NCBI GenBank assembly: GCA_001414485.1
Contig: LLEY01000074.1
Coordinates: 186,001 to 250,000, forward strand
DNA from: Calycina herbarum
Taxonomy: Eukaryota > Ascomycota > Leotiomycetes > Helotiales > Pezizellaceae
Length of the DNA stretch: 64,000 nucleotides
Direction: 5' to 3'
Program-made: the position numbers and the translations under genes
The notes under the pieces: model-generated
What the model was told of the DNA's origin: nothing
The model's input: the letters and a program-made list of their open reading frames with translations, nothing else
The model's database searches: none
Part shown: piece after piece, positions 38,033 through 62,757 of the stretch
Position numbering within the stretch: position 1 is the stretch's first letter
Layout: each line of letters begins with the position of its first letter

Positions 38033-40432
38033 ATGCCACCAGAACCACGTCGAGACCGCTCGCCATCGTAAGTCTACTTCCTTTGAGCCGATCTTGGAGA
38101 GCAAACAAAACTGATGATGCATGTAGGCCAGAGCGCTTGTTTGCGAGAGTATGGGAAGAGGATGATGTTGCTTTTCCAATTCCACCTACCCCTGCACCTT
38201 CGACTCCGCCAGCACTTGCCTCATCAGGATTGTTAATTGAGATCGAGGATCAACCATTGCCGCCAGCAGCTCGAATTCCAAATTCGGTTTCCGCTCCGGT
38301 ACTGGCCACTTCAAGCGCTGGACTATCGCCATCGGCTGCACCCTTCCAACCTGCAACTGCTCGCGGCCCAGGTAAGTACTTGTCCAATTTCGAGTTTTGC
38401 TTTTTCGCTGACTTAACCGTAGCTCTTGTACCTCAACGTGCAGCCGTCACTCCCCGCAAGGTTTCTACTCCTGGAGCACCTGGAGCTGCACAAAATGGAA
38501 GCCCGCAGACTCTCCGCAATGACGGCGCTCCCAAAACCATAGGCTCCCCTTCCGGGTTTCAACGACAGAATGGCCCTACCAACATGACGCCCCAACGCGG
38601 ACCCCCAGGTCTTGCCCCAAGACGGTATGATTCTGAACCTCGATTGCCACCCGGAAAGGCACACTTTCCAAAAGGCCCTGGTTTGGAAACAAACCGAGAA
38701 GCCTTAACAGCTAAGCATAAGAGGGAGAGGAAGGAAAAGGAAGAAGCCCTTCTTGTTGAACCATCGGAGGACTCCGTATTTGCAGCTGAAGTATGCATTC
38801 AACCTCGATATCATGGCAATTTGCTTACAATTCACAGGGTATTTATCTATGGCCAGACAAAGCACAGCTACCCAGTCAACTACTAGGTTTGCAATTGGAG
38901 GATCTCAACCACATCAGATTTCAGTACAACGTCCACATCGCTTGGAAGGAGGATTTGAAATCATTGGTAGTCATGGCGCCTAGAGGCAAAAACGCTCAAC
39001 AACACGTTCGAGATGCACTTGCTGCTGTCCGACAGGATTACGAAAATGCCAAAGCGAGAACCAATTTAGCTGCACCACTTTACATTGCGGTCCCTCCAAC
39101 TGTTGATGCCATTCGCACAATTGTTAAGCCAGAAAAATATGGAACCGACGTGACAATGATTGAGCTACAGGGAGAACCTTATTCCAAACAGAGAGCCGCC
39201 GTTTGGAAAAAGGAGCGTGCCTCGATGATCAAAGATGGACAAAACGAAATCAAGGCTCACTTGTTGAAGAACCTTCGAGCATTGGCTCCAATGAAGGGAT
39301 GGATGAGAATGCGAGTTAACTTTGGACATCTCAACATTTCACATTACCCTAAAGCCTTTGGCCAGGGAAAGTGCGACTTCAAAGGTTTCTTGGAAGTTCT
39401 GAAACACCCCCGAGCCCAAGCCGGTAGGAACTCCCGCCTCATCCCCGCTTTGTGTGCAATGAACAAAACCCATGCTAACATTCTGCAGGTTCTACATTTG
39501 AGAGAAAGTAGGTCGAATCGAATATCATCCTTTGATTTTACTCCGCTAATCATATTCCCCGCTTATAGACTCCCCAATCCTCTGTCTGCCCTCAAGTTGA
39601 AGAGTGGAATCGAGGCAATGCCAGAGTTTTGCTCTATATTCGGTGTTGCTTGGCGCAAAGAGACAGTCGTGTTCAAAGAGTCGCTCTGCCTTTTCTTCGA
39701 AACAGGACAAGGAATTCCCCTCCGACTTGAAATGGATATGGACTACAACGAGATTGGAGGTTACCAACCGGGAACGATCAAATGTTTCCGTAATAACCGG
39801 AGAAACAAACACTTGGAAATCCTGAGTTGTGATCCAGAAAAGTGAGCATTCTAAGAACAGCTATTTTTAAAAAAGTGCTGCTAACAACCACACGCAGGCA
39901 AATTGATTGGGCTCTAGAGCTCATCACAGATAACATGGTCAAGGACCCTGAGCCCGAGTGGGAGAGCTACATTAGCAAGTGCATCGCCACTGGTGAACCG
40001 CGGCATGATTCCCTTGGACTTCCATACCCCGCCATCATCTTAAGATATGACAACAAGATTCGCATCAAGACGGCTGTAGTACGAAGCAAGATTTCATACA
40101 TGTTGGCGAACTCTGGCTATCACATCGATCTTACGATATATCGGGAATGGTATAGTACTAATGACCAACCAAACGCTACCCTGGAACCGGTTATCAAGGC
40201 AGGAGTATCGATGTACCATCCACAATGGGACAGTGAAATGTTGTCTATTGAGGAAACTACGATCCAGCGATTTTGGGATGATCAACTCAGCCAACTGTTC
40301 GACACGGGTCCAAGGGAGAGACCAGGTCACGTAATCGATCACTTCCTCGGAGAAGTTGATTACGTTGCAGGACTTTTGAGTACCGTATGTTACGACGACT
40401 TCAACGATTTGAAATCGTCGCGCTCTTCTTAG
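38033..40432 (+). CDS. conserved fungal protein of unknown function
   Basis: Seven exons (38033-38067, 38127-38371, 38423-38790, 38838-39423, 39489-39507, 39569-39841, 39898-40432) close in frame to 686 aa. Exon 5 is only 19 bases; the two introns around it total 126 nt, so ignoring them keeps the frame but inserts 42 foreign residues. The first ~210 residues are Pro/Ala/Arg-rich and disordered. From GIYLWPDKAQLPSQLLGL the protein is globular, with a KH-like segment (FQYNVHIAWKEDLKSLVVMA) and strongly conserved-looking blocks around GWMRMRVNFGHLNI and EMDMDYNEIGGY. I believe this is a fungal domain-of-unknown-function family but cannot give a reliable name. No enzyme motif or membrane segment is visible; RNA binding is a guess from the KH-like look. 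Confidence 0.8.
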
Positions 40433-43526: not shown

Positions 43527-43641
43527 GAGGTGTTGCTACTATCCCCCCCCCTAAAGTAAATGTAGAGTGCACAGACATTTAGTATGGCACAGCGGCCGTG
43601 CGCTTACATTTATTTTGGGGGGGGGATAGTAGCAACACCTC
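43527..43641. repeat. foldback hairpin 1 with C9/G9 arms
   Basis: Arms of 36-37 nt: the left reads GAGGTGTTGCTACTAT then nine C, then TAAAGTAAATGT; the right is its near-perfect complement. The loop of about 42 nt contains GCACAGACATTT and a nested GCAC..CGGCCG..GTGC palindrome. Confidence 0.75.
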
Positions 43642-44027: not shown

Positions 44028-44121
44028 TACTATGCCCCCCCTTAACTGTCTGTAGACGCACAGACATTTTCACAGCCAAACTACCCTTGCACATGACAGA
44101 CAGTTAAGGGGGGGGATAGTA
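44028..44121. repeat. foldback hairpin 2 with C7/G8 arms
   Basis: Arms of 26 nt: TACTATG, seven C, TTAACTGTCTGT against its complement with one mismatch. The loop again contains GCACAGACATTT. It shares the TACTAT-(C)n end with the hairpin at 43527, so the two are either sister elements or the two ends of one ~595-bp element. Confidence 0.7.
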
Positions 44122-44786: not shown

Positions 44787-46686
44787 TTACTTTGCACCTG
44801 CGCTATTAGCACGCTCTCTCTCTTTGGTCGAGTATCTCCCATTGGAGTTATCGACTGCACTCCCTCTTCGTCTCAGACCACTTGCTTTACGTCTTCTGAC
44901 AAGTTGATAACCCCGGTCTAGCTCTGTTTCCACAGCACACCTAACTTTGAGGGCCCCAACGGCAGGCCAGACACTCCTTTCTCCTCTCAGCATCCAATAA
45001 TCGAGACTAGCTTGAGTTGGTCTTTCGAGCAACCGAATGAAATCGCCTGCAGAGAGTTCTGGGACGAGTGTAACGGATGCTGCAGGTATATGTTCATCAA
45101 CTAAGAAACGTCGAATAGAAAGAGGGAGAAAACCAAGGCTGTCGAGCTGTTGTAGGCGATGATGAATTTCCATTGTAAACAATCTGAGAAGACCACCAGT
45201 CAAAGACGTTCGGCCCCGGCGAGCATGTACTGGTGAAGGCCCATGCATATCACTTTGAAGAAATGGAACCAAGTATGGTCGAGCCTGGGAAACTATGAAA
45301 TGATTGACATTAAATAATTCGGCGATTCGAGACATTGGCGAGTCTCTGTCTGTGTAAGAAGCATGGGTCCAAGGGTGAAATGTGGTGTCTCTAGCAGCTG
45401 ACCAGGGTACAATTGCACCAGATGCATCTTTACATCGCAATGTGATTGATTGACCGTAGAGCGAGGGAGATGATGCATTTGATGCTAACGCGGCCGACCA
45501 TATCAACTGTATTTTTTTTTAGCTCGGATTCTTTTACGGATTGACAGTACTTACCACATTAGGAGCTGTGAGGTAGTTGAGCAGGTTTGGAACACCGCTT
45601 TTCCCGGTCGTCGCAACAGTGATATTAAGAACACGTTTGGTCCTGTTGTACGCTTCTTCAAATGTCAAATCACCAACATTAGCTCGAACGCATTCTTCCA
45701 ATACTGTGACGTCTAGGAAATAACCCTCTTTCCAAAACCTCCAAATTCTCCGGCTAAGAGTGCTTAGCCAGTTGTCCGCAACTGGCCCTGCCTGCCCATT
45801 TTCTCGCACGGCACTCTTGCCAGCAAACGCAGAGAGATCAATGCTCTCTCCATTCAAGAATTGTGGCAATTCATCTTCGGTATGGATTCCAACCAGTGCC
45901 GCAATCAAGGCCCCAGTGGCTGTCCCAGTCACAATCCTGGGAAGTAGACCCCTAGAGAATAATGCCTTTACCACACCCAGATGGCATAAACCAAATATCG
46001 AACCGCCTTGAAGAACCAATGTACTCCTCCCAAATGCCTGCCTTGTATCGTGCAACAAATCCAGCTTGGCCTGGCTGCTGAAGCCGGGGATTGCTCCGCT
46101 GCCATCAGCCCCGGGGGAGGTTGACAATTTGGTCACATCGACAATAGCTTGCGCAACTTGTGTAATGTAGTCTTCTATCAGAAGCTTAGTCCCCGCGAAA
46201 GCCCTATTGAACAACCGGGGTGTAGAAATATTGCCCAAATTCCGCACCAGACCCGATCGGAGAAGGTTGACCAGTTGCAAAGTATCCCCCTCCTCTCGTG
46301 CAACAATGATGGACTGCAAACGCTCGTGAATGAGGCGGTAATCGTAGTATTTCGAGGTAGGATTCTGTCGCCTGGAGATAAACACGTCAGCAATTGTCCA
46401 CTCAATTGAAGTTGGAGTTGGGCATCGAACGAACCATAGATCGTTCCCTAAGAGCACATCGAGTTGGAAGGCTGCTTCTTCCCATTCCTCGTATGTCTTT
46501 GCATCACGGAGGATATCAAACCAGAGGCGGGCTGGCTTTTTACGCGTCAACCAGCTTATGATTTTCTATTCACAGTTGATTAGCTGTGAAATGGCTGGTG
46601 TTGAATTTGGAGGGACGCGGACTAACCCTCCACCAAAAGGACGCAACATCGACAATCATTACCCAAATGGCCGTTAAAGGTGACAT
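44787..46686 (-). CDS. patatin-like (Tgl-type) lipase homologue, catalytic residues missing
   Basis: Four exons (46686-46627, 46565-46435, 46371-45555, 45506-44787) give 575 aa. The fold matches the fungal Tgl3/4/5 triacylglycerol lipases: an N-terminal DUF3336-like helical part (LWFDILRDAKTYEEWEEAA), the oxyanion stretch LQGGSIFGLCHLGVVKAL, and IAELFNVNHFIVSQARP. The nucleophile elbow, usually GxSxG, reads GTATG (Ala215 in place of Ser). The DGS motif carrying the catalytic Asp aligns with THAS (His384). Both members of the dyad are therefore replaced while the surrounding fold is preserved and the frame is open. Known relatives act on lipid droplets; this copy may be a pseudoenzyme with a regulatory or binding role. 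Confidence 0.85.
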
Positions 46687-47595: not shown

Positions 47596-49050
47596 ATGGT
47601 AGCAAGCGGTATGGGTCCAGGAAACTGTACGTCCTATAAAAACTTGGAACCAAACTCGGAGATATCTGGAATTGGGGTATGTGCTCTCTGCTGTTAGCAA
47701 CAATCGCTCACGATTCATAGGTCATGATAGCATTCTTGGGAACTGCATACACCACATTTGTTTGCTGTGTATCAAAAGAAATCATCGACCACAAGAGGCT
47801 TGCTATGAAAGCCACACCTTTGCTGGACAAATGGTCTTTTGCTCTTGGGAGTGTCGTCGTCGGACTGAGTGACCAACAAATCATCACCGGGATTTCAATC
47901 ATCGTTGCCGGTCTTACCCAGCTCCAGAGAGGAATAGCGGCCTATCATTGGCAATCCGTTGTTAACCTTTCCTGGTTCTCGACAATGACTCATTTGTTAA
48001 CGCTCACGACTCGCAGAAATGAATTTCGTTCCAACATTCCCCTTCGGATTATTCGAATATCTGGAATAGGGGTACTCATAGTGCTGTTAATATGCACCTT
48101 GTATCCAGTTGGTTATTTAGCTGCAACAAACCCCCTCCACAAAACTTTCCAGCCTGGTGTTTATATCACCCGCAAATGACTTGGGGTAGAGACGAGTTCA
48201 AAAGCACTGATACGAATCAGAGACCAGATACTTGGGTCTATAATTGGTTCTACGTTGTTTTCACCGTTGGACTTCTCATCTACAGCTTTTGCACTCGCCT
48301 CATTCTCTTGTCGAACAATATCAGTTTATCTCACCACGTACTCAGGGCCCCGAAAGGTCAGCCATGGGATTTTATGGAATCCATGATATGCTTGATTCAA
48401 AATTGGAAGCCTTGCCACCCACGAAGTCGTGTCGGGAAAGCGGTGAGCACTAAATTTCTACGCTCGATTTACGCGGTCGTAATTGTATTCCATGACTTGT
48501 ATAGTTCTAAAATCTGGGAGGTAAGTTTCATTCCCTGTTACTAAGGCTTACAGGTCATGACCCCTGAAGATTATTTAGATTTTCTCCGCTCTAGTGTGGG
48601 GAACTATAAGAATGCTATATACCAGACATAATATAGATATTACTCAATTTTCCACATCGCTTGCTTATGATAGGTTTCAAGATGGCCAGAAATCTTGGGG
48701 ATTTGGTCAGGTGGGCCCTGGGACTTTTAATACTGCCATTTATAAATTTCAACGGTTCGCATTTCACAATCTTGAAATTACTCATGTCTGACATTTTACT
48801 AGGAGCATTCTTTTCATACAGACATTCGTCGTTTTATAAGGACCCTATCGAAGAAGAGTCGTCCCAAACTCCACCCCTAAGCGCATTTTTCCAATCTGGC
48901 GGATCCCATGCCACCAAAGCAACGAAGACTACTCCTACGGGGTTTCAAAATTTTACGGACCCATGTTATGAGAAAATTCTTTGGGTCGGATACTCACAGT
49001 CTCTCTTAATCATAACACAATTGGTATATCGATTCACAGATGGATATTAG
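47596..49050 (+). pseudogene. polytopic fungal membrane protein with two frameshifts
   Basis: Three exons are visible: 47596-47676 (MVASGMGPGNCTSYKN...SGIG), 47721-48520 and 48579-49050. The product has about seven hydrophobic helices, with LSDQQIITGISIIVAG and YHWQSVVNLSWFSTMTHL typical of a large fungal integral-membrane family of unknown function. Near 48137 the frame must shift at an AAAA run to pass from AATNPLH to FPAWCLYHP. Near 48709 it must shift at a GGG run to pass from WGFGQV to ALGLLILPFINF. Both look like single-base insertions. The gene is thus either dead or carries sequencing errors. A 41-nt intron (donor GTTATT) could explain the first but not the second. Confidence 0.6.
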
Positions 49051-49935: not shown

Positions 49936-52900
49936 TTAAGTACCGCTAAAGATCAACAGACTTTGAATATCAACCCTACCAAATCCACGTTGGCGCAACA
50001 GGTCTCGGCCACGTTGAACAGGGAACTCGGCCACGACCATAATGCTGACATTGTCCGCGTTGATACCAGCCTCAACCAGTAGCTGTAGCACCGCACAAAG
50101 TGTTTCTCCCGTGGAAAGCACATCGTCTACAACCACCACTGTGCCACTTGTGGGAACCACGTCTCGTCCCATCTCTATACGCTTCTCTTTCAGATTGTCG
50201 GATGTCAAAGATGAGATATGAGACGAGGGTTTGGTAACAGAAACAGTGGGCTCTGGGAGCTTGCCGGCTTCACGGATCAGCACCAAGGGCACATCAACCT
50301 TCGAGGCCAACGCCGATGCATAGACAAAGCCACCCGCCTCACAACATGCGACTGCATCGACTTTGGCCCAGTCACCAATGAAGTGAGCTTGTAGCAGAGA
50401 TATGCACAGAGCCAGTCCTCCGGGTTGCTGGGAGATGCCGAGTACATGGCGGAAATCGATGCCTGGACGCGGAAAGTCGGGTATCTGACGTACCATATTG
50501 AACAGTCGCTGCAAACCCTCGTGGACAAATGGAAGCAAGAAACGCTCGGCAAATCTTTTTGCTGCCTCGGTCCCTGTTCTGTCATTGTCGAAGACGAGAC
50601 TAGGATGGTACTCCATATCCTCACTATCTTCATCCTTCCCATGAAAGCCTCGACGAACTTGCCGCGTTTCTATGCTAGCTTTGACGCGGACATCGAGCAG
50701 TCTAATATCTGGAATCAAATGGGATAGGGCTGTGACTGGAGCCTCATCTCGCATTCCAGTTATGAAAAGAACGTCTGCATCGGCACCAAACACCAAACTC
50801 AAAAAATGTTCCTCTGGTAGTCGAGGTCGCTGCTGTACCTGGGTCTGGAAGAATGCCGTCAACGCTGGCCGATGTTTCTCCTTATAATCTCGATCATACA
50901 GTAGAGATTTCAGATCAGCCCCTGTTGCCTCCGAGTATTCTCGCTTCGTGGCATCGCTTATGCTGACAGCTTGAGTCATGTGGCTCTTATTGAATACAGA
51001 AACCCAGATGTCAGCGCAAAAGTTCTTGCCAGCACCACTCTCGCCCGTGACAAGAATGACAAGCTTGAGCTTCTTTTCAATTTGCGTTTCCGTTCTCTGG
51101 AGAGGGCAGGTATAAGCCAGCACATTATGCGGGTCTAAGCTGCGCTTGAGACGAGCCAGGCGCGGCTGATTTGGTCCGAAGGCTTTGGTTGCCAGCGCTG
51201 AGTCTCTAGGGTCAGGACCTAGGTCAGCTCCATAGACTCCGTTGCTCAAAGGCAACAAGTTCTCAACGACATTGTAAACCCATTTTACAGCATCTCCAGA
51301 GGCCTCGTTTCCATCCTGGTCGCGTGGCCAGACACCAGTTATTACACAGGCAAAGTCCCAGTCACGACAACAAAAAGCAGTGGTATCGGCTGCTATTTCG
51401 CCAACCGCTGCGCCACCTTGGAGCATATGGAGATAGCAGAGAGGCGATGGACGATTCTCCACTGCTGATATCAAGACGTTGGCGACGTTCACAGCTCCGA
51501 TGTGTTTCAAAAACAAACATCGCTTAAATGAGGATGTCTTGCCGCTGCCATGTCCGCCATGCATTCCCATATACTAGAAGATGGGGGAGTCAGTATTTGT
51601 TTAGCAAGAAATGTCTCGGGATTCGGCACAGAGCAATGCTGAAGTTCAGGAACGATTCAGGAATGATTAAAGAGTCATTCAAAAGCCATCCAAGTGAAAG
51701 AAAGTGGGCGAACGATGTCCCAATTGCCTACCATCTCAGTATCGAACAAACCGATGCTGTCAACTGTCTTGATATTACCGCCCAGTCCTTGGAACGTATC
51801 GATAGAGGAAGATGGTTCCAAAGTCAACTCAGATGTGGTGGATTCGATCATTGTCACACCAAGTTGCAGTTGGTCATTATCCCAATACAGATACGCGTCT
51901 GCAGAAAAGTTCCGGGAAAGCTTGCTAGCGAACTCACCAAAACTGCTAAGTTTGAGCCGTGCTTCAAGGTCGTCTCTCAATGGAACAACCCAATTTCGAA
52001 TGGAATAGATTGGGGCCGGGTAAGCTCTGAAAGTCACACTGGTCACAATTCCAACATTGGTCCCAGCTCCTTTGATTGCCCATAATATATCGGCTTCGTT
52101 TTCGGGTCGCACAGCTTCAACCGGCAAGTATTGATTCGGTACTCGGCCAACGCAAAGAACCTTGCTTGAGTCGACGCTCACTATCACAGCACCAACGATG
52201 GCATCGCATGATAGCCCGTGTTGCCTCGCTAGGTGACCGATACCGCCTTGTAACCACAATCCGGCACCTACACTTGGGCGAGATCCTAGAGGCACTGTCA
52301 AGCCCTCAGCCATGGTCCTTTTGACAATGTCTCCTGTCTTGCAACCAGCCTCGGCAATGACCAAGGGGTTGGAGTCTGGGTCGAAATCGGAATTGGAATT
52401 GGAACTGGAACTATGATTTCTTTCATTCTCCTTGACAATATGTACTTGGTCAAAGGCACTCATGTCGATGGAGACGACGTTAGGCCAGGTACAGTGGCCA
52501 CTGTGACTTCCACCAATGACGGTCAGGCTGGTCTTATGCTTCAGCGCCCATTGAACACACTGCTGGACCTGTTGGGTATCTGTTGGACTCAAAATCGAGG
52601 CCGGGTGATGAAGGCGTGCCTCCCAGTTTTTGACCGTTTTTTCTGCCTTGAATAATGGTACATGCACCGTCAGGTCTGGCAGCTTCGCCGCATGTTGGGT
52701 AAAGGTCATCATGACGTTGGGTGAGCTAAACAATAGTTGGTCTGGGAGAGCTTCCTCACGACGGCCCAAGGTACGGCAAACCTCGCGCCAATTGACCTGG
52801 ATAGTTGGACTGTCGTCTGAATCCTGTGTAAATCCTGCGATGAAGGCGGCAAAATGGTCTAGAACTTCATCATTATCTACCAGACCGATGACTCCAGTAG

Positions 52901-53531
52901 GGAAACAAGTTGATTGATGGCATACCAAGTCGTCGATGCGGAGGGAGTCGCGATGGAAAACCACTATTATTCCTTGTGGTTGCTTGACAAGCATTTCCAG
53001 TGTTTGTTCGATTAACTTGTGTTTGGGATTCATTCCGTACATACTGTGGCAGAATAGTATGATGTCGTATTTTTTGGCATCATCTCTGGTGCCAGTACTG
53101 CTTGCTGTGTTTTCCTGTAGAACAAATGGAATTGGACGAATGCTAGGCGAGTTTTCCAAACATGGCAGCGGGGACTGTGTATCAGAGGTAGAAGAAAGCC
53201 ATTCTTCCAATCTCGTAGCAAATATATCGTTGGGCTCAAACGCGTCGTATTTCCTGATCTTTTGTCTCAAATGGCTAGGGAGATATCCAAGTACGCTCTT
53301 TGGGCCTGGTCCGATTTCCAGTACAGAGAGAGAGATACGCGAGTTGAAGCGAGATGCAATGAGCTTAGACAATTGAGGGACAATAAAATCTTCGTAGGTT
53401 TTCCATTCTGAGCGTAGCATAATATCAAAACCATCGCTGTACTGTTTGCTGGACAATGGCTGCTTTGGGAATGACGTCGCTGTCTCAGTTTTCTGTCTGA
53501 GGGCTTTTTTGAGTGACTCGAGGGTAGCCAT
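49936..53531 (-). CDS. four-domain fusion: methyltransferase, BBE-type FAD oxidase, P-loop kinase, APRT-like phosphoribosyltransferase
   Basis: Two exons (53531-51732, 51573-49936) join in phase 0 to 1145 aa. Residues about 30-290 look like a class I SAM methyltransferase (VLEIGPGPKSVLGYLP at 70-85, YDIILFCHSMYGM). About 300-755 is a berberine-bridge/PCMH FAD domain: VIGGSHSGH (340-346) with a candidate flavinylated His, GSRPSVGAGLWLQGGIGHLA, and the C-terminal GMHGGHGSG and DPHNVL. The usual second attachment Cys is absent. Residues about 769-945 are a P-loop kinase (GESGAGK, 777-783) whose ISDATKREYSEATGADL and YKEKHRPALTAF resemble the animal-type phosphomevalonate kinase fold. About 960-1145 is a phosphoribosyltransferase with APRT-like IPDFPRPGIDF and the PRPP loop VVVVDDVLSTGET (1079-1091). 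No signal peptide, so cytosolic. Reaction and pathway unknown; a modified nucleobase or nucleotide is a reasonable guess. Confidence 0.88.
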
Positions 53532-53807
53532 CTCGGCTCAGCGGGATGTGTTTTAGTATCTTGTACCAGTGACAGTGGTAGTGATGATGAATGAAGGGTG
53601 ATTTCTCGTTGTCAATGGTTGAGCAAACGAAATTAGAATAACGTATGATAAAGTGTTACCTTAGAAGTAAGGTACCTACGCTTAAGCGAGGCATTTTCTC
53701 CGCCAATAGAACAGGTCTTCCTAGGCTTCCTAGACGGAGACCTGCAGGTTGGAACCAGTCATTTCAGAGATGAAATCTGCTTGTTAGGTATTAGGAGTTG
53801 AGGTGAC
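53532..53807. other. promoter side of the fusion gene
   Basis: Upstream of the ATG at 53531. CCAGTGACAGTGGTAGTGATGA and simple purine tracts are visible, but no defined regulatory site. Confidence 0.35.
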
Positions 53808-54572
53808 ACGAGATGTTCAATAGAAGCGGTAATAAATATAAGCTTCGTACTTGCTTATCTAACTCGTTATTCCAACTATCTAGTGTATTTCAAAGTAGTT
53901 ACTTTATATACTTAGGAAAACTTAGAATATTAGTTTAAATAATTAAATTTTAGTTATTTACTACTATCTCTTCTATCTACTATAAGAGTAGACCGCGTTT
54001 TGTTAATAATATAAGTCTAGAGTAAAGTAATAATTAACTATCTCTAGTAGTTTACTTATACCTAGGTTATAAAGATAATATACTCTTCTTTATATTTATT
54101 ATATATAAGAGAAATAATAAAGTAGACTTAAAAGTAAATATAAGTTATAGTTATATTAACTTTTCTTTAGATAGAAAATAGTTCATTTCTTAGAATTAAT
54201 TTTAGAGTTATATTATAGAATATAAAGAAGAGGTTAGAAGTTAAAGAGTAGAAGATAGATCTATCTTATATTTATATAACTTATAAATAATTATTCTAGT
54301 ATATAATGTTTTTAATTAGCTAGTTTCAAGTGAATTAGCAAGTGAATAGTAACGTACTAATATGAAAGTTTCTTTCTTAGAATATTATCTAATATTATAT
54401 TAATAAAAAAGATTATTCTAGCTATTTAGAATAATTCAAATAAATAAAGGATATAATATATCAGAGCAAAGATTGTTAATTTCTTATCGTCTGAAACTGT
54501 TTTATTCAATTTCAATGTTCTAGACAACGAGAGAAGAGGTACCTATTTACTGTCGCTTTTATTGTGGTTTTT
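53808..54572. mobile_element. family A foldback element split by AT-rich DNA
   Basis: 53808-53905 matches the left part of the copy at 1191 (AGAAGCGGTAATAAATA, then CGTACTTGCTTATCTAACTC and GTTATTCCA in the same order). 54500-54572 carries the matching right end (TTTACTGTCGCTTTTATTG). Between them, 53905-54490 is strongly AT-biased (runs of TATTA, ATATA, TAGAA) with no coding frame. The AT-rich part looks like repeat-induced mutation or a decayed insertion inside the element. Confidence 0.55.
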
Positions 54573-54594
54573 ACGTAATTCCTAAGCAGGCTGT

Positions 54595-55912
54595 TCTGCC
54601 ACTGGTCGGTCAAAATCTGGAACACAACTTCGGGTCAGTTAATCAAAGCGATCACAGATGACTCGATTTTTGCATTGTCTCCAAACTGCAAGCAGCTCGC
54701 GTTGCTTGGAGGTCCTAGCGAAGCAATCGTTTTGAGTCTTGAATCTGGGGATAAGATGCGTCTTTCAGTATCCCAATCAATGGTTAAGTACCTGTCTGCT
54801 GATAGGTATACATATAATCGACACGACCATCGTGTCTTCTTCCCTAGTCACAGGCAACTGGCTGCATTTACAGACAATACTCTTGTGCTCTGGAGCTTTG
54901 GGGCGGAAGACAAGCACGATTCAGTAGGCCTAGGACATAGCGATGCTGTCACGCTTGTAGTGCTCACTCCCGACGGCAAACAGTTAGCTTCAGCTTCGAA
55001 TGACAGGATGCTCAAACTCTGGGATGTGAACTCCGGCAAAGAGACAAAATTGTTTTCAGGCCACACCGGCCCGATTACAGCAATGGCCTTCTCGCCGGAT
55101 GGAATTCATCTAGTCGCGGCTTCCGCTGACAGTACTATCAGACTCTGGCGCACAAACTCAGGGGAGCAGGTAACCAAATTGAGCCAATATTATCGTTTAA
55201 TCAATAGTGTGGCCTTGTCGCCCGATGGTACCCGGCTATCATGGGCTTCTTCCAGAGGTGGATCTGGATCTGTGAGATGAAGTGGAGGACAAGTGGCAAA
55301 AGCGGTATAATGGGAATCTTTCAGTCAAACATGAATACTCAACTATTTAAGGGACTTACTCCTGTCACAGCAATCACTTTCTCTCCTGACGGTCAGAAGC
55401 TGGCAGCAGGATCTGGATATGGACCTTTGCGGCTCTGGGACACTGATTCGAGAAACTTGTTGACAGTACTTGAGACTCACGGCGCAACAATATCTACAAT
55501 TTCTTTCTTGCCTGACGGGAAGCAACTGGTTGTGGCATCGACTGATAACGCAATCACACTCTAGGATACAGAATCACTGGTATGGCTGCAGAAAGTTGAG
55601 CTACTCGCACCTATTTCAAAATTAAAATTCTCCAGTGACGGCCAGACTACGGAAATTGATCGAGGAACCCTTGACTTTTCAAGTCTCTTGTCGAATTCCC
55701 AAGGATCTAGTCCGAAAGCTCTGGGAAATATATTCTTTCGAGGCGAGTGGGTATATCGAGACAACCAGCGTCTTCTTTGGCTACCTCCTGAGCACAGAGG
55801 GGGATGTTGGGCGGTTAGAGGCAATATAGTTGCGCTTGGGCATGAGTCTGGTGCAGTTACATTCATAGTGTTTACGCCTGAGAAATGTAATGAGGTTGTT
55901 GATTTAGGATGA
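54595..55912 (+). pseudogene. WD40 tail of a fungal NLR (NACHT-WD40) gene, decayed
   Basis: WD40 repeats are recognisable: SVKIWNTTSGQLI at 54604, LKLWDVNSGKETKLFSGHTG, IRLWRTNSGEQ and LRLWDTDSRNLL, with FSPDG before most. The last part LLWLPPEHRGGCWAVRGN and ALGHESGAVTFI is the conserved C-terminus of fungal NACHT-WD40 proteins. The frame is broken near 55250 (twice) and by a TAG at 55562 where a repeat Trp (TGG) is expected. The NACHT and N-terminal domains are absent, and coding begins immediately after the element ending at 54572. Known for intact members: incompatibility and innate-immune-like recognition. This copy cannot make a working receptor. Confidence 0.75.
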
Positions 55913-57314: not shown

Positions 57315-58390
57315 TCAAGGCCCTGGGCCATATTCCCCATTTGCTTCAATTGACATTGGACTACCATTATTAGGCCGATGAACTTTTCGCTGGGCTCCCA
57401 ATGCCGATCTTGGTTGTGTACGTACCCCGTTGTGTTCCAAGTCATCCTCACTTTCTTCCGCCGTACCATAGATCGAAGCTTCGTCCAGCTCCCGAATATC
57501 CAGCGGTCGATTCCTTAGCCATTTCATCCTTGGCCCACTTCTTGCGCGTTCCGACACCTTAAAGCCGAAGATTTTGGGCTCGTACACCTTGCCTCTGCCA
57601 AGCCCAGGTCCCAAGTTTTGTACATTCATGCCATTTATCTTTTCCTTATCTTCATCACCACCTGATGTGGAACCCCGAGATCCGTGACCAATAGTGTCTG
57701 CGCCCTTTTTGCTGATGTCGTAGTCTGGGAATGTGAGTAAAAATAAAGCTCCAAAGGTTCGACCGAAGAACGCGCCATCAACTGTTTGAAACCGGGAGTT
57801 GGGTGGGACATAGACATCCAAGCAAGAAGGGCAGAAAAGCTTTACTGTGTCTTCGCCTGGAACGTCGGAAAGGCCAACGGGTAAGGTGCGCACGCCTTCG
57901 CAGAATGTTCGAGGACAGACGCCAAAGTGCCCCAGCTCGTACTTTTCAGACATTTGTTGTATGCCAGCGCGCGAACAGATAAAACGCTGGTGAATGAGGC
58001 CGTAGAGCATCTCGGCAGAGGATTCGATAATCGATAAGTCGGAAGCCATCCGGTGATGTCTTCGCTCGACGGTGGCTCTGCGATTTGTGCGGTCTTCCCC
58101 TTCGATAGACTCGTCTCCTTCGTCTTCTTCATCATCCTCCTCCTCATCTTCTTCGTCCTCCGGTTCGACGTCCAAGATCATCTAGAGTAGGCGTCAGCGT
58201 GCGGACAGGGGAAATTATTCTTAGACCTCACTTCTAGTGCCTCCTTGTACATGGCAACCTGTGTCTGTAGCCCTGTTAAGTTGAAATCATCTTCTATGAA
58301 GTCCTCTGATATCTCTGCAAAATATTCGTGGCCGAGTAACGAACAAAATGAGGAGATCCAAGACTCGGGCGTGCCAGAGGAGGAAGACAT
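57315..58390 (-). CDS. CKB1: casein kinase II regulatory (beta) subunit
   Basis: Two exons (58390-58232, 58181-57315) give 341 aa. MSSSSGTPESWISSFCSLLGHEYFAEI is the canonical CK2 beta start (WIxxFCxxxGHEFF type). The acidic insert (DEEDEEEDDEEDEGDE) fits the acidic loop that receives phosphate. The zinc ribbon is CPRTFC and CPSC (FGVCPRTFC...KLFCPSCLDVY). The C-terminal extension of about 100 residues beyond YGP-type core is Gly/Ser/Arg-rich, as in other filamentous fungi. Known role: dimeric regulatory subunit of CK2 in nucleus and cytosol. The ATG at 58390 is preferred over an upstream in-frame Met because it places the conserved core at residue 11. Confidence 0.92.
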
Positions 58391-59848
58391 CCTAAGAGTG
58401 TGTATTTGGGTGATAAAATCAAGCTTCACAGGATTGATTTGCGGGAGCCTTTTCGAGGTCTGGGATTGCGCGACCCTGTGATCCAATCCAACCTTATGTT
58501 GTCGCAATCGCGATCCAAAGACGGTGGGGCTATTGGTGTTTGTTCAGATCAGATTTCGTGGTAATGGAGAGTTGTTTTTATTTTGAATGAGGGGTCGTTC
58601 GAAAGTGGAAACAGGCCTATAGTGGCCCTGGCGGAGGGAGAAGTCTCGTTGTCTATTACTAGTCAGCTACTATTTCAAGATAATAACCTACCAAGGTGAG
58701 CCTACAATGAAAGGTGATGGATGGTGCAATCTGGGTGAGAAGGTTTGCAGAGAGGGGCTTCACTGCGGGCGCTTCTTGTGACGTGTCTGAGGGCAGCTAT
58801 GTTTGCTGCAGAGATCTGCGTGCGCTGCGAAGTCGCAAGGGGAGAGGAACAGAGTCGTGAGGGAGGTGGAGTTTGATTTAAGAGTGAAGCTTCGGAAGGG
58901 TTCTTGTGCTGGCCTTGGGCCTGCCTGTGTTGTTGGTGGCTAAGGTTGACTTGGATTTGCGCGTGGCAGGCTGCGGGCCAAGCCGTAGTAGAGCCGGGGT
59001 AGTATTATCCCGTGATTGGCCCCCCTTCACTAAGTGAAGGGAAAAGTAAAGTCAAATACGCTTGTCTATTTCAGAAAGAAACAATGAAATAATGAGCCCA
59101 AAAGTCGCTTACGAAACCATTATTTACTAAAAAATCGTCTGGACATTTATTGACAATGTCTGTCTACTGCCGCACTACGATCAGCGTAGGGTTTAAGTAA
59201 TCTCCCATTTACAAACTTGACCTTTGTCGAAAATCTGTACAGAGGTATTTATTATATTTACATGAACTATATTGGCCAACTACTTCTTATTCTAGAATCT
59301 ATTTAGTATAATTTAATATTCATCCTAAATATTGGAACACGTAAGTATAGGGTGCACTGAGAACATAAAATCATGAGAATGAAATAGTATGAAATTCATA
59401 AAATGAGAGTGGTATTGACTCTAAGAAATAAATGAAGCTTAAAAGTGCCAGAGCCCAAGATTTGAAGAAGTAAAAAGTCGTTAAGCTGGTAACAAAAGAA
59501 AATAAGAAGAAAAAAGCCAACAATAGCAGAATACGAAAATTCCATGATTGCCCAAAAAGTAAAGAAGCCCAAAATCAAAGAGTGCAGTTACCAAAAGAAG
59601 AAGAAATAAAAGACCAAAAGACAGAAGAGAAGATATGAAAGATAAGAAATGAAAGTTAAAGAACACAATACAAAGGTATATCAGAAACAAAACATAAACA
59701 AGAACTTCTAAACGAGCGTCCTCTGAAACCAAATAAATTCATGCAATGAGTGAATATCCCAAGCCAATAAAGAAAAAAATAGAAGAGAAAAAATAGAAGA
59801 AATTTAGTCGCACGTACCCTCGCTAATGGCGCTCATCATCTTGGGATA
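58391..59848. other. intergenic region, no gene seen
   Basis: Promoter of CK2 beta on the left and 3' flank of the Zn2Cys6 gene on the right. The stretch 59100-59800 is A-rich and has no open frame of note. No repeats recognised. Confidence 0.5.
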
Positions 59849-62757
59849 TCACCAGGCGATAACGGTCTCTCTCTCATCCCTCGTTCCATCACCATTTAAC
59901 AAGGCTTTCTCGCATCGAACCTTGATATATCGATCGGCGATGTGGTAATCGACAAGTGTTAATCGAACTCGGTTTTCTTCCGGCATAACCCAGTGTGTGT
60001 TCTGGCTTGCTCGTGATCCTGCTCTTGATCTTTGAGTTTGCATACCAAGAAACATCCCAGTTTGTCCGGGATCTAAGTATTCGTTGACTCCCATTGTGTC
60101 CATTCTATCGGGGGTGTTTGATATTTCGCTTCCAAACTCCCATTGACCTTGTAGATTCGAACCGGAATTAGGATCCATAAATTGGTATTGGTCGGCAGAC
60201 ATTCTTTGCGTTTCGGGGACCCTCGCCATATGTGGTCCAAGTTGGGGAAGAGAAAGTCCCTCCTCTTCCCACGCTGTGACCCAGCGACTAATTCGTGCGC
60301 TCAAAACAGCATCCCACATCCCTTCTTGTCTTGGATTCGAGAATAAAAGATCCAATGCTTCACGTCTAACCACTGGATCTCGACATTTGGTGGCGGTAAA
60401 GTGAAGTGCAGGAATAATTCCAGCATCGAGACTGAATCGTGGCATTCGTGGTAGTTGGGTCAATTCTCGCGAAACCGTTAACAACCCGCATGTACTGACA
60501 ATATATTTAAACTCCGGGAGGAAAGAATCGTAAACCATTTCTGAGTCTTCTGGCACGATAGCTAAAACAATGGCTGTACATTTCTGATACAGGGAGATGA
60601 CAAGAGCAGCGGGATTCACGACCGTGCCATCAAGCTGAATTGCTCCATCGAGAAATGGTCGAAAAGCGGAATCAAAAGCGGCCAATTGATGTCTCCAGAA
60701 TATGACTTGATTGTCAATATAGTTTTGAGAGTCGGTTGTCTCTGGTGCAAAGTTTCGGTTGAAGAGAACACGGCGATAAAACTGCAAAGCTCGATCCATG
60801 AGATGATCCCAGCAGCGGTGCGCTATGTGGAAGTTTGTGAACGAATTTGGGATTGGAATGTGGTGAACATGTTGCACGTCCCAAATCAACGGAGGAATAG
60901 AGGGTGCAATCCCAAAGAAGAGACCATGCCCATCAAGACGCACGAAGGTCTGCACCAAAATATCTTCGAGTACGAGGTCATTCTGCAAAAGTGGCGGGCT
61001 AGGGTCTCGCGAGAATATTGGTCTCTGCGTACTAGAGGAAGGCATTTGAGCTGAAGGGAGCGAGAATGAAGGAGATCGAGAAGGGGTAGTTCCTAAGATG
61101 GGTGACGAGGTCACTGAAGCCGATCGACTAGAAGCCAGATTTTCGTTGCTTTGACTTGACCATCGCCAATTGGGACTGGGCGCATTACTAGGTAAAGCGT
61201 TCAAATAATCCTTTGGTGAGTAATTGAGATTCTCATGACTGAGGCGCAATCCAGCTCTTGAAGAACCATACAACATCTCTTCAGAATATGGATGCGAAAT
61301 CCCGAGCCCAAAAGAGCTGCTAAAATCCGGAGAAGGTGCTTGAATGCCAATTTCAGGTTGTGGAATGCTCTCCGCCTCAAGATATTCCTGAATGTGTGCG
61401 GTTATAGGTGATTCGTTTGCAAAGCCTCCGCTATTTAATTGATTCTGGAGGATTGGCGGAAGTGGTACTGGGTATGTGGAAGCCCTGCGGAGGTTGGTTG
61501 GAGATTGTCGAGTCGGAGAAAGCATTGTTGGATTTCCACCATAGTAACTTTTCAACATTTTGAGCCCTCCGTAGGTTTGCTGAATACAAGAGACGTAGCT
61601 CCCTTGAAAAATTTCAAAACAGATGAAGAGCAGACAAGTTATGAGCGCATTCCTCAATTGTGGTGATCCTGATGAGGAGATATATTGTTTCAATGCTTGG
61701 ATTGCCTTGAGATGCTGCAGAACCGCCTGTTCGTGGTGTTTCTGGTCGACTGTCTGTATTATGTTGACCTTGAGATTTGGAGGAGGGGCATTATCCAAGC
61801 TTTTTGTGAGAGCACCGAGAGCTATCACCGCGTGCCGAACAGCGCTCAGATTATGACTTTCCTGCAGAACAAGTCGGGTCCAGAAATGGCTGCTGGGAGT
61901 ACCATCGAAAAATCCAGAAAGAGCATGAACAGTTCTCTCGGAAAACACTTGAAAGTAGCGACTCTCGTCTTCTGTGTCATGAACAGAAACGCTGGGATTA
62001 TACATTCCAATTGAAGGGGTTCGAGGTCGAATATTGCTTAGGGCCCGGTTCTGTGTTTGCTCAGGGAGATAGCCGTCGCATTTGCGACCAAACTTCTGGC
62101 ACCTAATATTCCATTATGAGCCCTCAAAAACTATTTTTCTTGATAAAAGTCACGTACCTAATACATTCTGGCTTGGTTTCATCACACTTGACCCTGCGAG
62201 TCTATGAAATGTGTTAGTCTTGCTAAAGTCGTCTCAAAATGAGGTGCTGTTCTCGATAGTCGCTAAACCCGCAAGATATTCCCATTTCTCGAAGAAAACA
62301 TTGACGAGGATATGTTCCCGAAAAGCAGACCTGAAGAAGGAAAAGAACACACCAGGTGCACGCCAATTCTTTGAAGTTTGGGGTTGAAAAAATGATGACC
62401 TACCTTGCAAGTGATACATCCAGACTTGACTTTGGGCTTGCTAGCACGACCCCTCTTCCCAGGTTTTCCTTCACGTTCAACAGATGGTCGACGATATAGC
62501 TCGGTCGGTGTTTGTTGACTTGGGGATAAATATGGAGAAGGTGATTTTGGGGCTTTTGGTTGATCCATTGGAATAGATTTCGATGCAAGTGTTGAGAGAC
62601 GACAAAGGAGTTGTGGGGTGATGATATGCGAAATGGATAAGCTGGGAGGCAATACTCGGGACAAGGGCGTACAAGTGCCGGAAGAGTTGCTTGAATGTGA
62701 CCTGCTTGTTGATGATGCTGCAACTGATATCGAACCCAAGAAATTTGAGGAATCCAT
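59849..62757 (-). CDS. Zn2Cys6 transcription factor with fungal-specific regulatory domain
   Basis: Three exons (62757-62404, 62201-62158, 62102-59849) give 883 aa. The zinc cluster is assembled across both splice sites: SGCITCK | TRRVKCDETKPECIR | CQKFGRKCDGY, with all six cysteines in the CX2CX6CX5-6CX2CX6C arrangement. It is preceded by a Ser/Pro-rich N-terminus and a basic KRGRASKPKVK stretch. From about residue 165 the middle-homology type domain runs: YFQVFSERTVHALSGFFD, HAVIALGALTKSL, LITCLLFICFEIFQGS. A Ser-rich linker (about 300-440) separates it from a C-terminal helical part. Known role: DNA-binding activator of pathway genes in the nucleus; targets unknown. The start at 62757 is one of several possible Met codons. 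Confidence 0.9.

Follow-up and report, generated by a model that had tools for sequence, protein, structure and literature searches.

A single intact gene on the minus strand of the window, by which we mean the whole 64-kb stretch of DNA that was analysed, is predicted to encode four enzyme domains in one chain. From the N-terminus these are a probable methyltransferase, a flavin oxidase, a kinase of the phosphomevalonate kinase (PMK) type and a phosphoribosyltransferase (PRT) resembling adenine phosphoribosyltransferase (APRT). The gene, its exons and its domains are located as follows.

49936..53531, minus strand: fusion gene, ATG to TAA, 1145 aa once one intron is removed
51732..53531, minus strand: exon 1, 600 codons, residues 1-600, encoding the methyltransferase-like domain and the oxidase's FAD-binding part
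51574..51731, minus strand: predicted intron, 158 nt, GT-AG, phase 0, inside the oxidase domain
49936-51573, minus strand: exon 2, 546 codons including the stop
52677..53531, minus strand: residues about 1-285, probably a class I SAM methyltransferase (PF13489 and motifs)
51079..52664, minus strand: VAO/BBE-type flavin oxidase, residues about 290-765, split by the intron (PF01565 and BBE)
51079..51573, minus strand: oxidase C-terminus, residues 601-765, with a candidate BBE motif (PF08031)
50539..51066, minus strand: P-loop kinase, animal-type phosphomevalonate kinase family (PF04275), residues about 770-945
49939..50517, minus strand: APRT-like type I PRT, residues about 953-1145 (PF00156, APRT models, 4x45)

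The original prediction had proposed this four-domain fusion as one gene and had singled out the methyltransferase, the kinase and the PRT for a profile check. Its coordinates, phase and motifs were reproduced by the splice join and the motif positions. The fusion itself stands as far as the oxidase, the kinase and the PRT are concerned, all three of which pass Pfam cut-offs; the methyltransferase fell short of its cut-off and is only probable.

Gene model and oxidase domain

Starting with the ATG at 53531, the gene is unbroken and coding in frame throughout. Stop-free runs as long as those seen have chance values, at the local base composition, of about 1.6e-13 (600 codons) and 2.4e-12 (545 codons), and two open runs of such length are not due to chance. 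Five segments were scored against the codon usage of five other ORFs in the window. In every one of them the called frame gave positive but small values (0.05-0.075 bits per codon) and the other five frames negative ones; the intron was negative in all six frames. The composite RIP index across the gene (50.0 to 53.5 kb) lies between -0.66 and -0.97, giving no sign of repeat-induced mutation. The predicted intron begins with GTAGGC, carries a CTGAC branch-like site from 20 nt before its end, and closes with TCTTCTAG and a CTAG acceptor. Structure prediction of each exon product, run without an alignment, returned mean pLDDT values of 33.9 and 35.1.

The methyltransferase and the start of the oxidase share one open frame, and the oxidase tail, the kinase and the PRT share another. 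The FAD-binding part of the oxidase (FAD_binding_4, PF01565) scored 53.8 bits (E 2.2e-14) with the exon 1 piece and 46.6 bits at residues 310-452 with the whole protein, against a cut-off of 26.4. The BBE family (PF08031; cut-off 20.6) reached 21.2 bits with the exon 2 piece alone and 18.1 bits with the whole protein. Sequences of 6-HDNO and EncM match the oxidase domain, and the spliced oxidase aligns to EncM in two collinear stretches, one per exon, the second being very weak (8.3 bits); the exon 2 tail matched the SorD C-terminus (E 0.13) and the EncM C-terminus (E 0.73) weakly and without significance. For the flavin oxidase 9p1p, the best stretch with the whole protein as query covers residues 389-762 and crosses the exon join, and the stretch listed with the oxidase alone as query was confined to exon 1. 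Because exon 1 contains the FAD-binding part of the oxidase and exon 2 its tail with the BBE match, two separate neighbouring genes were judged unlikely. A break at 51.6 kb, which the original prediction had named as a result that would overturn it, is contradicted by an oxidase spanning the intron.

The oxidase shows GGSHSGH at 340-346, in which His343 is aligned to the His of the EncM GGGHS motif, and GSRPSVG at 416-422, which contains no Cys, so that the His and Cys pair of the bicovalent type is incomplete. In bicovalent members both residues attach the flavin, and a Cys stands where GSRPSVG has none. The aligned His, together with the missing Cys, suggests that FAD is attached by a single covalent link. 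In FAD_binding_4 and the His of GGxHS, and in the C-terminal BBE motif as far as the exon 2 piece alone goes, the domain resembles 6-hydroxy-D-nicotine oxidase, EncM and chitooligosaccharide oxidase; it differs from them in having no Cys in GSRPSVG and in being fused on both sides.

Probable methyltransferase, kinase and phosphoribosyltransferase domains

The N-terminal domain was graded a probable methyltransferase on the strength of its match to Methyltransf_23 (PF13489) together with VLEIGPG and FEPN. With the segment alone as query the family reached 21.1 bits (E 0.00028), below the 27-bit cut-off, the next family following at E 0.21; with the whole protein it reached 18.0 bits (E 0.0025; cut-off 27). 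Motif I of class I SAM methyltransferases is present as VLEIGPG at 70-76, and the acidic residue after it as Glu99 in FEPN (98-101). PDB sequences searched with this piece gave no match at E up to 10, and an NCBIfam search returned nothing for the domain. A six-frame Methyltransf_23 scan of the genome, in which 28 of the 69 first-look candidates were scored, gave a listing of 28 stretches that did not include the domain. The methyltransferase may resemble histamine N-methyltransferase.

The kinase matched P-mevalo_kinase (PF04275) well above the cut-off of 33.8, with 74.9 bits (E 6e-21) for the kinase piece alone and 70.7 bits at 775-886 with the whole protein. The P-loop, GESGAGKN at 777-784, has its Lys intact. 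With the phosphomevalonate kinases 3ch4 and 7xnd, the PDB sequence matches were only weak (E 0.37 and 0.12), and in these weak alignments GESGAGK stands against GKRKSGK. While the domain is like animal-type phosphomevalonate kinase in the P-loop and the N-terminal two thirds, it differs in this replacement, in its fusion to a PRT and in a score far below the cut-off of the equivalog TIGR01223 (24.2 vs 188.15 bits; 133 of 185 positions aligned).

The PRT likewise passes its family profile, Pribosyltran (PF00156), with 65.6 bits at 980-1119 of the whole protein against a cut-off of 26.3, and misses both APRT equivalogs, NF002636 (98.7 vs 125 bits) and TIGR01090 (89.3 vs 185.85 bits). The APRT chain 4x45 matches the whole protein at E 5.1e-18. 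A complete PRPP-binding motif, VVVVDDVLSTGET, with its two acidic residues and TGxT, is found at 1079-1091. The domain is 31.6% identical to the APRT-type exon of the same genome, a comparison with one exon and thus a partial APRT sequence. In the active-site loops it has CEAGG where this exon has LDARG, and PSSHI with a 9-residue insertion at DKEYG, and since these loops differ, its activity may depart from that of APRT or be lost. Adenine phosphoribosyltransferases (TIGR01090, NF002636) are thus matched in family and PRPP motif, but not in equivalog score, in the LDARG loop or in the region of DKEYG. We treat both PRT and kinase as divergent relatives and not as APRT or PMK proper; since the equivalog cut-offs are missed and active-site positions differ, their substrates are not assignable.

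Counterparts and neighbourhood of the gene

The genome (68.8 Mb, 379 contigs), which its Fungal_trans_2 gene and ERG8-type exons mark as fungal, was searched with matches coming exon by exon. The whole protein found ten stretches: the two exons themselves, an APRT-type exon of contig 64 and seven flavin-oxidase-only stretches matching residues 388-515. This search revealed no second copy of the fusion gene and no further match to the methyltransferase and kinase regions. By family, FAD_binding_4 was found in 63 stretches and PF00156 in ten, eight of them above the cut-off; the kinase family had one match, the fusion's own, and none in 14 control prokaryotes. Three stretches on contig 99 match ERG8-type phosphomevalonate kinase with 199.4, 68.4 and 66.6 bits, none alone above 376.95, and a separate enzyme of this type is probably encoded there. 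Given these probable ERG8 exons and the separate APRT-type exon, a housekeeping role for the kinase or the PRT of the fusion is unlikely.

With exact 8-residue patterns, which reach close relatives only, none of 18 kinase matches and none of four exon 1 matches in the genomes of prokaryote species were confirmed. Pattern searches of viral contigs ended likewise (0/12, 0/2 and 0/9 confirmed).

The window holds 93 ORFs of at least 110 aa, 56 after overlap thinning, and 51 of these 56 were scanned with Pfam, the ORFs being exon pieces. The nearest genes that the scan recognised around the fusion gene are these.

45537-46565: patatin-type lipase (Pfam)
54579-55561, plus strand: WD40 repeats in two overlapping ORFs (Pfam)
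57318-58543: casein kinase II beta (CK2-beta; Pfam)
59852-62113: fungal transcription factor (Fungal_trans_2; Pfam)

Farther off lie a copper-fist factor, one Cupin_8 and one Methyltransf_16 protein, an amino-acid permease, a fatty-acid hydroxylase, a glutaredoxin and an alpha/beta hydrolase. Core enzymes for polyketides, peptides or terpenes did not turn up among the 51 of 56 ORFs scanned, where genes with short exons may escape, and a classical gene cluster was rejected on this ground.

Directly upstream of the ATG lies an AT-rich, RIP-like patch (53501-54500; composite index +0.74 and +0.95), in which the 500 nt at 54001-54500 combine a GC content of 0.19 with the index of +0.95; at the 3' end of the gene (49.5-50.0 kb) the index is mildly positive (+0.30). 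The WD40 ORFs may represent the end of a disrupted gene of the NLR/HET type, a nucleotide-binding domain of this type being reported for none of the window ORFs scanned. The earlier description of the surroundings as an accessory zone is only partly apt: it suits the adjoining WD40 repeats and AT-rich patch, but not the CK2-beta gene on one side and the patatin gene on the other, each no more than about 4 kb away.

Some further features of the window were recorded. Two short palindromic MITE-like elements occur at 43537-43632 and about 44030-44120; their termini resemble TACTATCCCCCCCC...GGGGGGGGATAGTA, and for the second element the left terminus was read by eye. At 38790-40429 on the plus strand, two consecutive ORFs match DUF7905 one part after the other, the second of them just below the cut-off; they probably belong to a single gene that is divided by an intron or a frame break. 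Three ORFs at 47721-49047 on the plus strand, adjoining the fusion gene, appear by eye hydrophobic and membrane-protein-like and gave no Pfam match.

Possible pathway and comparison with known systems

We tentatively favour a single-chain multi-step enzyme, with the C-terminal pair of domains forming one unit, the N-terminal pair tailoring, and a modified nucleotide as the product. The original prediction had suggested that the fusion could build, phosphorylate, oxidise and methylate one nucleotide-like or purine-derived metabolite, and a route of this kind is a possibility only, the kinase and the PRT being too divergent for substrates to be named. The kinase and the PRT would act together: the PRT, to judge from its family, would convert a nitrogen heterocycle and PRPP to a ribonucleoside 5'-monophosphate, and the kinase, to judge from the phosphomevalonate kinase family, would phosphorylate that 5'-phosphate to a diphosphate. 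PMK phosphorylates a phosphomonoester, and because this known member of the family acts on an existing phosphate, the acceptor of the kinase would be a phosphate group here as well. The oxidase, with His-linked FAD and O2 as acceptor, would oxidise the heterocycle and the methyltransferase would methylate it, each before or after ribosylation, and the modified nucleotide would be made or detoxified within one polypeptide. In favour of such a pathway we counted the intact PRPP motif and P-loop, the splice and coding scores, the oxidase parts on both sides of the intron, the three profiles above their cut-offs, the separate APRT-type and probable ERG8 exons, and the parallels in Cns3 and Aspergillus sydowii described below; against it stand the methyltransferase below its cut-off and with no PDB match, the altered PRT loops and kinase P-loop, and the lack of a biosynthetic core nearby.

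Nearly as likely as this one-pathway reading are two functional pairs, the methyltransferase and oxidase tailoring one metabolite and the kinase and PRT salvaging or activating another, with the fusion serving co-regulation or scaffolding. A domain boundary at about 766-770 parts the two pairs, core motifs are kept in both, and no sequence feature ties them to a common substrate. On the other hand, covalent fusion often signals a shared pathway, and a locus of Aspergillus sydowii with PMK and FAD oxidoreductase genes, in so far as its description was available, suggests that these activities travel together.

We consider it improbable that the PRT half, the kinase half or both are no longer catalytic and act as ligand-sensing or ligand-binding modules for the oxidase, like the type I PRT fold in the PurR repressor. 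The change in the PPi loop of the PRT, the insertion in its hood, the altered neighbours of the P-loop and the pur operon repressor 1p4a among the PRT matches (E 5.7e-6) would agree with such a loss, but the PRPP motif and the P-loop Lys are intact, and the profiles of active purine PRTs fit better than that of the repressor. We give very little credit to a prediction artefact, be it two adjacent genes or a join by chance or mis-assembly: the join rests on prediction, exon 1 reads on for 18 codons into the intron until a stop, and the BBE match drops below its cut-off with the whole protein as query, but oxidase parts occur in both exons, splice signals and phase fit, and the domains on either side of the join are held together by one open frame each. 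Least credible is a phosphomevalonate kinase that works in isoprenoid synthesis, a reading judged unlikely despite the PF04275 match above cut-off, given the replaced charged residues of the P-loop, the low TIGR01223 score and the probable ERG8 exons elsewhere in the genome.

Should the four activities act in series, as in the single-chain enzyme that we prefer, the gene would by itself supply the route to a modified nucleotide. A bolder proposal, which we consider rather unlikely, is that one chain carries most of an undescribed nucleotide-analogue pathway, in which a single heterocycle would be ribosylated, phosphorylated, oxidised and methylated outside a classical cluster. Since no classical core enzyme was seen beside the gene, such a pathway would escape cluster-based mining, the usual cluster-finding tools missing what has no polyketide, peptide or terpene core next to it. 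An animal-type phosphomevalonate kinase domain would, if this is true, have a function in a fungus other than isoprenoid synthesis. As a single gene in a single host, the fusion also offers a simple experimental handle.

Full-text literature searches, with subscription papers mostly outside their reach and the texts represented by titles and abstract openings, returned no such domain fusion or architecture; solely within this literature, the original prediction's statement that no pathway of this kind has been described holds. In Aspergillus sydowii, the part of the source available places phosphomevalonate kinase (IPR005919) and FAD-linked oxidoreductase (IPR050416) genes near a sulfotransferase gene, as a putative cluster for an unknown molecule according to the authors (PMC11677658). 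With these genes found together, the kinase-oxidase pairing may recur in another fungus. The AsSULT neighbourhood is described there as cluster genes with a sulfotransferase, the available text not stating whether the genes are separate or fused (PMC11677658), whereas the genome analysed here gave no match to Sulfotransfer_1 (PF00685) at E up to 0.001, searched exon by exon, and a sulfotransferase partner was therefore rejected.

By analogy, and as far as the accessible part of its description goes, the closest functional precedent is Cns3 of the Cordyceps cordycepin/pentostatin cluster, in which a nucleoside kinase is joined to a HisG-type phosphoribosyltransferase (PMC8869658). Cns3 belongs to a cluster, whereas no cluster partners of the fusion gene were seen in the window; its PRT is HisG-type in contrast to the APRT-like domain here, and the available text makes no mention of a fused oxidase or methyltransferase (PMC8869658). 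Common to both would be a fungal P-loop kinase and a phosphoribosyltransferase in one protein, which in the case of Cns3 serves adenosine-analogue metabolism (PMC8869658).
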